Positions 3,001 to 64,000 of a DNA stretch of 64,000 nucleotides are shown here, one piece after another. Position numbers and translations under genes: made by a program. Location: assembly GCA_015059065.1 (NCBI GenBank), contig SVBE01000005.1, forward strand, positions 19,064 to 83,063, given 5' to 3'. Each line of letters begins with the position of its first letter. Positions within the stretch are counted from its first letter, which is position 1. The notes under the pieces are model-generated. The model saw nothing but the letters and a program-made list of their open reading frames with translations, was not told the DNA's origin and did not search any database. Source of the DNA: Erysipelotrichaceae bacterium (GTDB lineage Bacteria; Bacillota_I; Bacilli_A; RFN20; CAG-826).

Positions 3001-5853
3001 TATTTACTCGATGAAAACGGCGATGTGGAATTCGCTGGTAAGAAATTCTCGTTATTTACTAGAACAGTGCTCAATGAGGAAGACTTTGCAGGAGTTACTG
3101 CTCTTAAGTCTTATGCTTATGTGGGCTTAGGATTAACAGAAGTCCATATTCCTGACACAGTGACTTCCATGGAAAAATATCTCTTCCAAAACAACACCAC
3201 GATGGTGACTCTTGAATTACCATATTTAGGCTCCTCCCTTGAAAAGGATTACTACTTCACTGGTATGGACGAATTATTCAAAGACGATATTATTCCAGCC
3301 ACATTGACTAATGTGACTATCCGTGGTGGTTATCTCATCAACAACGCCTTTGTTACCAACAACAATGTGAAGAATTTGGTGTTAGGTGATGATGTCATAT
3401 TCGCTCATATTGATGGATATATGTACTACGAAGACTTCATGTCAAGTAAATGTTTATCAGGATGTCAACACATCGAGAAGATTACTCTCAACGTCGATAA
3501 GCTTGGTAGTTTGTCTTACTCCGCCAATTATTACAGATTATCAACTTTATTCTCTGGAACTTCTGGAACTTCTGGAACTCCATCCACATTAACCGAGGTA
3601 GTGGCGACTGGTAATAAGATTCCTGCTAGAGTGTTCCAAAATTCTTCATCTGTGAATAAAATTACACTTTTAGGCGAATTTGAATCGATTGGTGGTAGTG
3701 CTTTCACTGGTACATCCATCACAACTATTACAATCCCTGCTAGCGTTACTAAAATTGACTCATTTGCCTTCTTTGATGCTGATTCTCTTGTTTCCGTCAT
3801 CTTTGAAGAAGGAAGTAACTTAGAAGTCATTGCTTCTAATGCCTTTACATCTTGTGATGTGCTCGCTGAAATTGAAATTCCAGGTAGTGTAGTTGAATTA
3901 GCAAGTGATGCATTTGAATACTGCCCTAACTTAACCAGCATATACTTCGATGATACAGAGACTGGTGCAAGATATATTAAAACTGCTACTAACAAGTATC
4001 ACACTTTAGTGAGCGTTGATAAGAACATTACTTCCTTTGCTTTCAATAAAAATACATTGGGCATTGGTAATAACGCTTTCTATAACTGTAAAAACATCAC
4101 TTCGATCACTATTCCTAATACGATTAGAAGAATTGACGCTAGTGCCTTTGAAGGATGCTCTAACTTAGCAAGTGTGACATTTGAAGATGGTATTCAACTC
4201 TCTTCAATCCCAGCCCTCGCGTTTGGTAATTGTACTAAGCTTACTTCCGTTATCGTTCCTGAAGGAGTAACTAGTATCGGAGAGAATGCTTTCGGCGGAT
4301 GTTCCCTCTTAGAAAACATTTATCTCCCGTCTACTCTTGAAAGCATGTACACCAGTGCACTGAAAAACCATAAGAGTGGAATTAACATCTACTTCAAAGG
4401 TGATTTAGGTGATTGGGTGAGCCTCACATTAACGGATTCATCTTACAATAACTACAATGGCAATGCGAACATCTACTATTATGATGGTAGTGATTATGCT
4501 CTAATTGGTTCAAATCTCGTCATTCCTGGGAAAGTTACTTCCATCAACGATATGACTCTTGGACAATTAGATATTGATACTCTTGATATTTCCGAAGGCG
4601 TGGAGAACATTGGAAAATATGCCTTTGCAGGAGCGAAAATGACAGAAGTCACTCTCCCAAGCTCATTGACACATATCGGCATGAATGCCTTTGATACTTG
4701 TTCCTCATTAGTGGATGTCTATTATAACGGCACGATTAAGGATTGGCTCGGTATTTACTTCGACAGCCCGACTTCTAACCCAATGTATTACGCGACTTAC
4801 TTCTATATCTTAGATGAAAATGGCGATGTGAATCATAACGGTCAAAAGTATTCTTTACTCCGTGATTTAGTCATCCCAGAAGGAACCACTTCGATTAATG
4901 GCTATGCGTTCTACAGCTTTGAATGTTTATATAGCGTGACCATCCCATCTACACTTGCCACTGTTAATAACGCTGCATTCTATGAATGTACTGGTATCGT
5001 TCAAGTGGTGAACAATAATTCACAATTACAGAATCTTGGTGACAATACTAATAACGGTTACATTGCTTATTATGCTGTAACTCATGATCACGTTAGCAGA
5101 ATCTATAAAGATGCTGATAATGGTTTCGTCTACCACATCGTTAGTGGTTTACGTACTGTTCTTGACTATGTAGGAAGCGATCCAGATGTGGTTGTTCCAA
5201 GTGACTATAATGCGCTTAACACTTTAAGTATCGATAAACCGTTTATCGAATCTGTGAAGCTCACTTCTACAAATCAAAGTGTAAGAGTTAACGAAAAAGC
5301 CTTTGGCTTACACGCGACGGGATTAAGAAAGATCTCTTTGACCACTGTGTATAACTACACAAACGGCGTAAGCGATCCAACATTCAGCAAGATGATGTAT
5401 CCTGAAGTTGCTAAGAACTTAACAGAAATCGAACTCACTTCAAATGTCTTCCAAATCAAGAATGGTTCTCTTGCTAATCTCACTTCATTAGAAAAGATTA
5501 CTGTTCCATTTGTGGGAACAGGATCAATCGGATCTGGCACTTCAGTGAGATTCGTTGATATCTTTGATTCCGTTCCATCCACTTTAAGAACTGTGGTAGT
5601 TGCAGAGAACCCATATTCGACAAAATTAGGCTCATATTCATTCGATGGTGGAGCTTCTATGGTCACTTCATTAACCATCCCAAGCACAATCACTCAAATT
5701 GACGGTTATGCTTTTAGTGGTAGTAATTACACAAGCATCAATTTCGCTGGAACTAAAGACCAGTGGAGCAAAATCACTAAGGACGTCAACTGGAAGAGCG
5801 GTTGCTCATCATTAACACAGATCGTGTGTACTGATGAAACAGTTTCAGTCTAG
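1..5853 (+). CDS. BspA-like leucine-rich repeat (LRR_5) surface/secreted protein, 5' end outside window
   Basis: Frame 1 is open from base 1 (FNDIDHFINIDSEAFYGTGVTSVNLSN...) through the listed ORF. Dozens of 'AFxxCxxLxxVxIPxxVxxIxxxAF' repeats. The ORF-track ATG at 148 is internal. Confidence 0.93.
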   Translation, partial: FNDIDHFINIDSEAFYGTGVTSVNLSNANIGYYAFANAKSLTSVLLGSKVTRVGSQAFSNNSPSIICRSYTVKDDFNYSNYASDWYTNPFPAITHYAGYITDQAGKRDESTYDYANKYTAQYYLTQDNKGNITGAYLYYFSNNSAADAVSEITIDQCYETYSSLKKVSYTVKGICPNAFEKGNTKVTKVTIGSKVVNLAPGALSGLSRLQNLIIESGVTNVVSLFNDEAKVGYYSAGPSGNNYIPKTLLEVELYGTDLTGDALYGARSIKTLILNNGTESISTSTNSFKNTDIRVIHYDTNSYMSASAITPGSTSYNGIAKNAEYVYRNDDANEAPFSYVLDQDRDSFIIRVNSDGKDSIVQFIRNSDYVFIENIIIDENGTNRHIFSIEPYAFEGCVNLANVKIESNLLESIGAYAFKNCTSLKSITIPSNVTNIGGGAFNGSLLFRVYFQGGCNITNDPFYDSRLIEVVTDDINDLPSVMRDKYKYASSLSASKVVFHDDGCVSYEDTLYYAPECDVLTMPEGVTKIYKIEVLTENPHNQIIFRDDFDFSTLYSTDFEPVRKMMLETVDEYGVIYLGNEDNPYQILYSAAGLTEESYSINNKCISIYAKAFCDNTDIETIVIPNGVRYINRMAFDGCSNLKDITISDSVVLIDYEAFCYCSKLTEITLPTNAVLGQDILLGCSGLKKLTYSGTVASYYLSYQALDVEEVVFTGNSIVSEAWSYRGELKKITFTAENTVINSKAFSNCGGLTSLVIPENIIYLGKFAFANCNGLVSVVIPETLTSLDSQVFAECENLKEVTVPGTAAIFTSGLFDDCNAIEKITLTSLETGHYLQQLFASSYLANKNLPVSLKEVVLSEGISALDNMLLTRAENVEKVTLPSTLETIGEQAFYGCTSLKSIVIPDKVETINSLTFSNCTALTSVVLGEGVTTIDTKAFYDCTSLEKIYFPSSLSSVGELAFYNCNALSEVYYGGTIGEWGTISYAKANANPLSTGNAKLYLLDENGDVEFAGKKFSLFTRTVLNEEDFAGVTALKSYAYVGLGLTEVHIPDTVTSMEKYLFQNNTTMVTLELPYLGSSLEKDYYFTGMDELFKDDIIPATLTNVTIRGGYLINNAFVTNNNVKNLVLGDDVIFAHIDGYMYYEDFMSSKCLSGCQHIEKITLNVDKLGSLSYSANYYRLSTLFSGTSGTSGTPSTLTEVVATGNKIPARVFQNSSSVNKITLLGEFESIGGSAFTGTSITTITIPASVTKIDSFAFFDADSLVSVIFEEGSNLEVIASNAFTSCDVLAEIEIPGSVVELASDAFEYCPNLTSIYFDDTETGARYIKTATNKYHTLVSVDKNITSFAFNKNTLGIGNNAFYNCKNITSITIPNTIRRIDASAFEGCSNLASVTFEDGIQLSSIPALAFGNCTKLTSVIVPEGVTSIGENAFGGCSLLENIYLPSTLESMYTSALKNHKSGINIYFKGDLGDWVSLTLTDSSYNNYNGNANIYYYDGSDYALIGSNLVIPGKVTSINDMTLGQLDIDTLDISEGVENIGKYAFAGAKMTEVTLPSSLTHIGMNAFDTCSSLVDVYYNGTIKDWLGIYFDSPTSNPMYYATYFYILDENGDVNHNGQKYSLLRDLVIPEGTTSINGYAFYSFECLYSVTIPSTLATVNNAAFYECTGIVQVVNNNSQLQNLGDNTNNGYIAYYAVTHDHVSRIYKDADNGFVYHIVSGLRTVLDYVGSDPDVVVPSDYNALNTLSIDKPFIESVKLTSTNQSVRVNEKAFGLHATGLRKISLTTVYNYTNGVSDPTFSKMMYPEVAKNLTEIELTSNVFQIKNGSLANLTSLEKITVPFVGTGSIGSGTSVRFVDIFDSVPSTLRTVVVAENPYSTKLGSYSFDGGASMVTSLTIPSTITQIDGYAFSGSNYTSINFAGTKDQWSKITKDVNWKSGCSSLTQIVCTDETVSV

Positions 5854-6033: not shown

Positions 6034-7308
6034 TTATTTATTAAATTTCAGTTTCTCTCTTTTTAATAAATAAGTAGTCAATCCGCTTCCAGCGATTAAA
6101 AAGTCGATTAGAAAGGTAAACAAGTTGATGAATTGCCAATTGCCGGGTTCATTAATAGTGTATTGGTTTTTGAAGCGTTCATGTACTTGGCTATTATTTG
6201 ATGGGGCAAAATGAAGAGTGTCATTTTCGGTGACATTGCTACTTAATCCTAGTAAGAAATTGTTTTCATAATAAATAATGCAACTACGCGCTAGATATTC
6301 AACATAAAAGCCGTTAGATAATTCCTTAGTTATTTTAGGGAGATCTTCACCACCGTTAGGGTTAGTTATATTAGGGAGATATTCTCCGCTAGGGCCGAAA
6401 TATAAATCTAATGTAATATCACCAGTTGGGATATTTTGATACATAGAGCCTTCTTTTGTACTAATTGTATATGAGTAATTATATGCTTTCATCAGAATGG
6501 TTAGCGCGTCATTATTTTTATTGATGTTAAATGTATAAATATATTCTTTTATTTCATTGCTATTATATTTTTTAGCAAATACCCATGGTCCAGCATTAGC
6601 AAAAAATAATCCAACTATTAATACAATTAATCCAGGTAAACCGAAATAGAGGAGATACTTTTTCTTTTTCTTTGCATTATTGTTGATGATATTTTTCTCT
6701 TCATCATTAAGCGAATAATCCGGATTATTTAATAATGTTTTGTTCATTAAAGAATAGAAAAGTGGTGATAAGAGATAGAAAGTATATAAAGATATAAAGC
6801 GTGTATATATGAGTAGTGATTTACGTATATATGGGTTATAGCCATCAATAGTTAATAAATAATTACTTCTTAATACAATTAAAACAATTAATCCTGCAAT
6901 ATAAGTGATTAACGCAATAGTTAAAACAATTATTGCCCATAAAGCTGGCAAGAAAAATATAGATAAAACTGCTAATATAGTAGATATAATCAAAAACAAA
7001 GATGTTAGAAGAAGATTATTTTTAAACCTCAAATAGTTTCTTTTTGCTAGTTGAGAATAAACCTTTTTTTCTTTTTTAGAAATATCTTCCTCATCGATTC
7101 TTTTTTCTCCAATGATTAGTTCTTCAACTGAGACATCAAATATTTCTGCAATAACGGGAAGAATGGATAAATCTGGAGACGATCTATCACTTTCCCAACT
7201 AGATATTGTTTTATTTGAGACGTGAAGAATACTTCCCAGTTGTTCTTGTGTCATCCCTTTTGATTTTCTAAGTGTCATGATGAATTTGCCGATAGACTTC
7301 TTTTCCAT
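6034..7308 (-). CDS. XRE-family HTH regulator with C-terminal multi-TM region
   Basis: N-term MTLRKSKGMTQEQLGSILHVSNKTISSWESDRSSPDLSILPVIAEIFDVSVEELI; later hydrophobic segments. Start MEKKSIGKF preferred over ORF-track start. Confidence 0.85.
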   Translation of the reverse strand: MEKKSIGKFIMTLRKSKGMTQEQLGSILHVSNKTISSWESDRSSPDLSILPVIAEIFDVSVEELIIGEKRIDEEDISKKEKKVYSQLAKRNYLRFKNNLLLTSLFLIISTILAVLSIFFLPALWAIIVLTIALITYIAGLIVLIVLRSNYLLTIDGYNPYIRKSLLIYTRFISLYTFYLLSPLFYSLMNKTLLNNPDYSLNDEEKNIINNNAKKKKKYLLYFGLPGLIVLIVGLFFANAGPWVFAKKYNSNEIKEYIYTFNINKNNDALTILMKAYNYSYTISTKEGSMYQNIPTGDITLDLYFGPSGEYLPNITNPNGGEDLPKITKELSNGFYVEYLARSCIIYYENNFLLGLSSNVTENDTLHFAPSNNSQVHERFKNQYTINEPGNWQFINLFTFLIDFLIAGSGLTTYLLKREKLKFNK

Positions 7309-7551
7309 AGCGTTGCTCCTTACGCTTACACTATACAAATTATAGACTGATTGTTCACCCTACCAAATGTTCAATTTGTCTATATTTTGTAGAATTATGG
7401 AAAAATACCATATAAATATGACGTGAAAATAAATGTTTTTCTAAAGAAACAGTTTTTCCTTTAATAATTTACAATAAGTAAAATATTATAAATAAAATGT
7501 TGCAACTTTACTCATAATTTCATATTATAGATAAGCGACTTAGTTGCGATT

Positions 7552-7633: not shown

Positions 7634-7710
7634 TGGATATTTAGCTCAGCTGGGAGAGCATCTGTTTGACGTACAGAAGGTCGGGGGTTCGATCCCCTCA
7701 GTATCCACCA
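7634..7710 (+). tRNA. tRNA-Val (GAC)
   Basis: Acceptor tggatat/gtatcca, anticodon stem tctgt/acaga with loop ttgacgt, TpsiC ggttcgatccc, encoded CCA. Confidence 0.95.
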
Positions 7711-16206: not shown

Positions 16207-17964
16207 ATGTTCAAATTACTTTTCAAAAACATGAAGGCGAAACAGTGGATAGCGGTCGTGGCTATTTTTATTTTGACCCTAGGCCAAGTTTTCTTCATGA
16301 TGACGATTGTAGACTACATCTCTAAACTTACCGGCGCGGTTGCCGCAAGTAGAGATAATGGCGTTGCCGAAATATGGTGGTATGGCTTATATATGGTCAT
16401 TGCTGCTATTTTAATGGCGGTCGTCGAAGTCATCATTCGTTTCGTTGCTAGTGCCACTGCAAGTAGCACAGTTACTTCCATAAGAGAAAAACTCTATGTA
16501 AGAGCTAATGAATTCGCGCTTTCGGATTTCGCGTCCTTCTCAACTGAATCTTTGATTACGAGAACGACAAACGATATTCAAAACGTTCACCTCGCCTGGC
16601 TTACATTCTTAAAGACAGCATTCGTTGCCCCAATCACTATGGTGTGGTCAATCATTCTTTTACTTAGAAATGCGAATGGTTCCTTGACTTTAGTCACAGG
16701 TATTTGGTTATTCTTCTTAATCGCGGTGGTGGTCATCTTATTAATGATGGTTACTCCAAAATATAGAATCGTCCAAAAATTAACTGATTACCTCAACGTT
16801 GCTTCTAGAGAAAACCTCACTGGTGTGCGTGTTGTACGTGCCTTCAATGCTGAAAGCTATCAAGAAGGTAAATTTGAAAAAGTTAACCAACAGTTCACAA
16901 AAGTGCAAATCTTCACTGGTCGTGTTTTATCTTTCTTCACTCCATTTGTCATGATGGTCATGATGGGCTTATCACTTTCCATCCTTTGGGTTAGTGCTTT
17001 TGTCATCAATGGCATGGATCAAGCAGCAGCATCAGCGACATTCAGCTCTACTAACGGATTCGTCATGCTCGCCAACCAAATCGTTATGTCCTTCATCTTA
17101 ATCGTGACTTTAATCGTCATTTGGCCAAGAGCTTCTGTCAGTGCGAAACGTGTGCAAGAAGTCATCTCTCACGAAGTTTCTATCTTAGATACAGATAATC
17201 CAGTTGAATTCAAAGAACAAGGTACTATTGAATTTAAAAACGTCGGCTTCGCTTATCCTGGTTCAGATAAAGAAGCGGTTAGCAATATTTCTTTCAAAGT
17301 CAAACAAGGTGAAACTATTGCCTTTATCGGTGCGACTGGTAGTGGTAAGACAACAATTATCAACATGATTCCGCGTATGGCAGACGCTACTAGTGGTGAA
17401 GTCCTCGTCGATGGTGTTAACGTTAAAGACGTTCGTCAAAAAGATTTAAGAGATAGAATTGGTTATGCTCCACAAAGAGGATTCCTCTTCAAAGGTATTA
17501 TCAGAGATAATATCGCTTTAAAAAATCCTAATATGACCCTTGCCGATATCAGATGGGCAGCGGAAATCGCTGACGCTGATGGCTTCGTCATGAATAAACG
17601 TAACGGATATGATTCTGAGGTTTCACAAGGTGGTTCCAACTTCTCCGGTGGTCAAAAACAAAGACTTTGTATCGCCCGTGCGGTTGCTACTAAACCAGAA
17701 ATCTTAATCTTCGATGACTCCTTCTCTGCTCTTGACTATCGTACAGATAAGACAGTGAGAGGTCGTATCGCGGAAAAACTACCTAACACGACAAGAGTGA
17801 TCATCGCTCAACGTGTTGGCACAATCATGGATGCCGATCAAATCGTCGTCCTTGACCATGGCAAGATGGTCGGTATTGGCAAACACTACGATTTAGTGAG
17901 AAATTGCCCTGTATACCAAGAAATTGCCTTATCTCAATTAAGTAAGGAGGAATTAGGTTTATGA
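16207..17964 (+). CDS. ABC exporter half-transporter (TMD+NBD)
   Basis: Walker A GATGSGKTT, signature FSGGQKQR, ABC-type TMD. Confidence 0.95.
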   Translation: MFKLLFKNMKAKQWIAVVAIFILTLGQVFFMMTIVDYISKLTGAVAASRDNGVAEIWWYGLYMVIAAILMAVVEVIIRFVASATASSTVTSIREKLYVRANEFALSDFASFSTESLITRTTNDIQNVHLAWLTFLKTAFVAPITMVWSIILLLRNANGSLTLVTGIWLFFLIAVVVILLMMVTPKYRIVQKLTDYLNVASRENLTGVRVVRAFNAESYQEGKFEKVNQQFTKVQIFTGRVLSFFTPFVMMVMMGLSLSILWVSAFVINGMDQAAASATFSSTNGFVMLANQIVMSFILIVTLIVIWPRASVSAKRVQEVISHEVSILDTDNPVEFKEQGTIEFKNVGFAYPGSDKEAVSNISFKVKQGETIAFIGATGSGKTTIINMIPRMADATSGEVLVDGVNVKDVRQKDLRDRIGYAPQRGFLFKGIIRDNIALKNPNMTLADIRWAAEIADADGFVMNKRNGYDSEVSQGGSNFSGGQKQRLCIARAVATKPEILIFDDSFSALDYRTDKTVRGRIAEKLPNTTRVIIAQRVGTIMDADQIVVLDHGKMVGIGKHYDLVRNCPVYQEIALSQLSKEELGL

Positions 17965-63860: not shown

Positions 63861-63904
63861 AGTGATAAATTATCGCAAGTATTAAATAATCACAATCTTT
63901 TATA

Positions 63905-64000
63905 AGTGACCTACTCCCACCATTTAAAGAAGTGGGGGTTTCTCGTTCGATGGCCCTTACGAGCCAAGCATAGGCGAGCTAACTCCGTGGGTCCCACGGT
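63905..64000 (-). mobile_element. right end/omega-RNA 3' region of an IS200/IS605-group (TnpB) element, truncated by window edge
   Basis: minus strand: accgtgggacccacggagttagctcgcctatgcttggctcgtaagggccatcgaacgagaaacccccacttctttaaatggtgggagtaggtcac; CCCCCACTTC...GGTGGGAG end typical of these elements. Confidence 0.68.

Follow-up and report, generated by a model that had tools for sequence, protein, structure and literature searches.

The final 95 bases of the window, by which we mean the whole stretch of 64,000 nucleotides that was analysed (G000:C6:19064-83063, G000 being the source genome), very probably form the right end of an IS200/IS605-family element that is multicopy and carries tnpB only (IS1341-type), with an omega-RNA scaffold and a guide that would act together with TnpB. 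The anatomy of the element, its recurrence, its conserved RNA structure, its boundaries and the TTTAT at other copies were all observed directly. Contig C6 ends at 83063, which is base 64000 of the window, and the right end of the element is cut off there. On the minus strand, positions 64000-63906 read accgtgggacccacggagttagctcgcctatgcttggctcgtaagggccatcgaacgagaaacccccacttctttaaatggtgggagtaggtcac, followed by ttataaaagattgtgattat. The type of system, TnpB with the omega-RNA of IS200/IS605 elements, is well known. The features of the locus are listed below.

63906-64000, minus strand: right end of a tnpB element from the IS200/IS605 family, which is the 3' part of the omega-RNA scaffold (copies of at least 95% identity in the source genome, one copy in G001, covariance-model match)
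63985-63999, minus strand: helix 1 of the scaffold, CCGTGGGACCCACGG (4 of 5 pairs changed on both sides among 28 sequences, 100% of cells paired)
63957-63998, minus strand: final 13 codons of tnpB, RGTHGVSSPMLGS, with the stop TAA; they overlap the scaffold (frame and peptide as in the C-terminus of the TnpB on C25 of G001, also on C18 and C4)
63942-63978, minus strand: helix 2 (63978-63975 with 63945-63942) around helix 3 (63966-63961 with 63956-63951; 8 of 10 pairs with changes on both sides, pairing in 99-100% of cells)
63917-63937, minus strand: helix 4, the terminal hairpin CCCCACTTCTTTAAATGGTGG (96.3% of cells paired)
63910-63906, minus strand: GTCAC, tip of the right end (from aligned copies and flanks, with divergence of all copies immediately beyond)
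63890-63905, minus strand: candidate guide of 16 nt, TTATAAAAGATTGTGA, adjoining the right end on its 3' side (by the rule of ISDra2 TnpB, PMC8612924)
63544-63860, minus strand: rhuM remnant (tblastn with the RhuM relatives L009, L010, L048 and others)

The 95-bp right end is present at four contig ends of the source genome with at least 95% identity, namely in the window and on C4, C18 and C8. In the latter three, which are further genomic copies of the terminus of the kind that the preliminary description had proposed to look for, the contig end lies 0-22 bases away in the direction of tnpB. Sequence within 150 bp of a contig end makes up only about 0.5% of the genome. The left ends of this subfamily are found at, or close to, the ends of C2, C5 and C13. 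The presence of four such copies at four contig ends therefore indicates an assembly break induced by the repeat at the end of the window, and it is the element that accounts for where the window stops. A search of plasmids with the right end gave one record, a weak one from Ruminococcus albus 7 (82% over 61 bases).

A complete element is present on C25 of G001, the one further genome searched within the genus. It is 1,391 bp in length, extends from just after TTTAT to GTCAC, and its sole gene (L110:2763-3941) encodes a TnpB of 392 aa with the C-terminus ...NRGTHGVSSPMLGS. This protein is matched by the Pfam families OrfB_IS605, Cas12f1-like_TNB and HTH_OrfB_IS605, and aligns to the solved ISDra2 TnpB over residues 2-370, which is near full length (E=2e-75). 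The D, E and D catalytic motifs of RuvC are present in it, as read in an alignment to its nearest relative in the PDB, which is a designed TnpB-like protein equal in length to ISDra2 TnpB. In the window, the visible tnpB consists of 13 codons and the stop inside the scaffold; the body of the gene is beyond the contig end and may be broken. The preliminary description had correctly placed tnpB next to the scaffold on the minus strand but had it lie wholly beyond 64000, whereas its last codons and stop are located at 63998-63957. Coding of the 95 bp in frame 1 (TVGPTELARL...) was also considered and ruled out, as the TnpB of G001 gives the real frame. Elsewhere in the source genome, a 69-codon 5' piece of the tnpB of the element (91% identical) is located at the end of C2, tnpB 3' tails are present on C18 and C4, and a second complete tnpB, 45% identical, is found on C12.

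Relatives of TnpB occur in 67 of the 196 genomes of the family. A Y1 transposase gene (tnpA) is located directly upstream of tnpB in G105, G007, G016, G126 and on C13 of G001, and the family therefore belongs to IS200/IS605. While a Y1 transposase is present in 9 of the 11 genomes searched, none was found in the 90%-complete assembly of the source genome. The intact element of G001, the tnpB 3' codons and the covariance-model match described below all bear out the proposal that the window ends in an IS200/IS605 right end encoding the 3' part of a TnpB guide RNA. IS1341-type elements, surveyed in PMC9956272, are alike in having tnpB without tnpA between IS605-type ends, and the assignment to this type is made here by anatomy only.

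Shorter elements devoid of tnpB are also present in the source genome. One of them, 302 bp in length, is located on C10 (about 17009-17310; L093:about 5010-5311) and retains the left end, the full scaffold and a guide of its own, ctaattagaaccaggataat; an intact TnpB of the same subfamily is encoded on C12 of that genome. Two others of 51 bp, on C4 (L090:about 7268-7318) and on C20 (ending at 7703 on the minus strand; L094), consist of the left tip fused to the terminal hairpin of the right end, and both are preceded by TTTAA. The 51-bp element on C4 provides the final codons of a 99-aa reading frame (L090:7027-7326). It is conceivable, though we consider it rather improbable, that these elements form a small network in which a TnpB from another locus, for example the one on C12, employs the omega-RNAs of tnpB-less elements in trans. 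If this were true, a single nuclease would maintain several non-autonomous elements, and the derivatives with a full scaffold make such use in trans directly testable.

The tnpB-less derivatives of the same genome would also fit a different view of the copy at 64000, namely that it is dead or a tnpB-less relic, the right end of which is only a fossil or a transposase substrate and gives no active guide RNA in cis. A C-A mismatch in helix 4, unique to the window copy among the 28 sequences (CA:1, columns 80-89), and the decay of the adjoining rhuM point in the same direction. However, the assembly breaks inside the window copy, as expected of full-length repeats, while the short derivatives were assembled through. 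In addition, the window copy keeps an intact, in-frame tnpB tail and shares 95-97% identity in the scaffold with the other copies. A relic is therefore unlikely, and we retain the reading of an element whose omega-RNA would act with TnpB.

Right ends from 28 loci, representing three TnpB subfamilies, were aligned. They share a structure of four helices with 23 pairs in total, in which 98.6% of cells are paired and 14 pairs show changes on both sides, and pairing falls to 33-51% in controls with slid partners. RNAalifold, unaided, gives nearly the same structure. Helix 1 is found as CCGUG/CACGG, GGAUG/CAUCC and CCGAG/CUCGG, and helix 2 as CUCG/CGAG, CUUG/CAAG and CCCA/UGGG, with few independent compensatory events overall because the 28 omega-RNAs form only three lineages. 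The elements that the preliminary description had picked out on the minus strand are all in place, i.e. a ccgtg/cacgg hairpin (ccgtggg/cccacgg at 63999-63985), the segment agctcgcctatgcttggctcgtaagggcc and, at about 63937-63917, the hairpin cccccacttctttaaatggtggg. A covariance-model search had also been suggested there. The model made here, built from the other two subfamilies with that of the window left out, yields a single match in the whole 64 kb, at 63906-64000 on the minus strand (80.3 bits, E=5.7e-21, the E-values being rough as the calibration was short), a strength well outside chance expectation. No family of Rfam 15 matched the window end or four related loci at E<=1, and this RNA family seems to have no model in that collection. 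Folding of the 95 nt as a single sequence is unremarkable (z=-1.27), and the structural evidence is comparative. Judged by sequence comparison, there is a conserved structured RNA which overlaps the tnpB 3' end and the right end.

One subfamily (L132, L140 and others) has its tnpB stop codon upstream of the scaffold, in others (the group of the window, L153) the stop falls within the scaffold, and the structure is the same in both cases, which argues for a role as RNA. A structured right end could also be kept only as DNA, to provide hairpin sites for the Y1 transposase TnpA. In IS200/IS605 right ends, a subterminal hairpin is bound by TnpA, and helix 4, near the tip, could serve as such a site. 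However, all four helices covary over 95 nt, tnpB codons included, and the scaffold is retained wherever the stop lies, as a requirement for RNA predicts; no TnpA was seen in the own assembly either. A role confined to DNA is very unlikely, and an omega-RNA scaffold remains the preferred reading of the structure.

Subterminal hairpins are present at both ends of the element, with the helices described above at the right end and a hairpin, atcttgat...atcaagat, at the left end of other copies. TTTAT precedes all four left ends of the subfamily (C2, C5, C13 and C25 of G001). C2 carries the dnaA side (L122/L155) and the start of C4 the rpmH-rnpA side (L090:1-111) of what we infer to be one insertion of the window's element in the dnaA/rpmH intergenic region, near the replication origin. 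When joined, these two flanks align at 80% along the whole of G001:C2:12536-14007, where no element intervenes, which makes this region an empty site. The joint alignment is best with the left flank cut directly after TTTAT, and a single TTTAT is kept in G001. Since the empty site keeps it, TTTAT lies outside the element, and it is likely to be the target and TAM of the window's subfamily. Insertion 3' of a fixed TTTAT without target-site duplication is apparent for the copy near the origin and would apply to the window copy by extension from the other copies; an orthologue of the window's own insertion site was not found in G001 by DNA search. The C12-type subfamily of the source genome follows TTTAA. 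In Sulfolobus islandicus, solo-tnpB elements go with TTTAT and tnpA+tnpB elements with TTTAA (PMC10640517). The same pairing is observed here, with TTTAT at the tnpB-only subfamily of the window and TTTAA where relatives carry tnpA, although the Sulfolobus elements are archaeal and differ in scaffold, and the TTTAA assignment here comes from flanks only.

The exact right end, for which comparison with an empty site had been called for, lies after GTCAC, where all copies diverge. Unique DNA starts right after this tip in every copy, and the guide therefore differs copy by copy. A guide directly 3' of the scaffold had been predicted in the preliminary description and agrees with this boundary. 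Its start has to be moved by one base, as 63906 is the last base of the tip (63910-63906) and the candidate guide begins at 63905. Its length also changes: the earlier 20-nt version runs to 63886, while the last ~16 nt of the ISDra2 RNA derive from flanking DNA (PMC8612924, from which the TAM rule is also taken), a precedent that suggests about 16 nt, 63905-63890. Matches to the guide with 3 mismatches occur at the control rate elsewhere in the own or the same-genus genome, and the lack of a further site beyond chance is expected if the target is the element's own empty site. No guide targets were found in viral contigs. Two matches with one mismatch in other genera were rejected, as TTTAT is not in front of either.

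Beside the guide, the decayed rhuM that had been noticed earlier is recovered by tblastn as a remnant. About 66 N-terminal residues are readable (63857 to about 63645), about 35 are missing and 35 more follow in another frame (63648-63544), while the C-terminal half is lost. The genes beyond it, a GDSL lipase-like, a NUDIX and an alpha-L-rhamnosidase-like gene, are all ordinary. The location of the guide about 25 bp upstream of the rhuM start codon would suit a nuclease-dead, domesticated TnpB repressor (TldR-like) that silences its neighbouring gene, but such a role is hardly credible given that the RuvC D/E/D motifs are kept in related TnpBs (the G001 homologue), that the element is multicopy with varied flanks and that the adjoining gene is a remnant.

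Going by published work on TnpB, the tnpB transcript would be processed to an omega-RNA composed of scaffold and guide. TnpB with this RNA may then cut the empty site TTTAT-TTATAAAAGATTGTGA that is left by excision of the element, and repair from the sister chromosome would restore the element. The Y1 transposase would have to act in trans or to have been lost, as none was seen in the own assembly. We counted against the reading as a tnpB element with a guide RNA this lack of a Y1 gene in the assembly, the lack of an Rfam match, the hairpin mismatch, the small number of lineages and the location of the tnpB body beyond the contig end.

The closest described system is ISDra2 of Deinococcus radiodurans (PMC8612924; structures 8bf8, 8exa, 8h1j), whose TnpB is related over nearly its full length. 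As in ISDra2, the RNA overlaps the tnpB 3' end and the right end, the guide is taken from the right flank, and the element inserts on the 3' side of an AT-rich pentamer and does not duplicate its target. Unlike ISDra2, the pentamer is TTTAT and not TTGAT, the tip is GTCAC, the scaffold has another sequence without a match in Rfam, and the copies are tnpB-only, with no tnpA seen in the assembly. The analysis confirms that 95 bases at the edge of a contig are enough for a correct reading of a guide RNA scaffold. It also defines an omega-RNA family without an Rfam match and provides a likely TAM (TTTAT) taken from a real empty site.

Other ends in the source genome were noted in passing. A third omega-RNA subfamily, of the gatagcccatcgatactg type, is also located at contig ends (C10:67473-67565 on the minus strand, and C21:1-41). 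At the ends of C13 and C5 (L156 and L158), the left ends appear by eye to sit in the T-rich tails (TTTAT) that immediately follow terminator-like hairpins, and one of the two is seen, again by eye, just downstream of a tRNA cluster.
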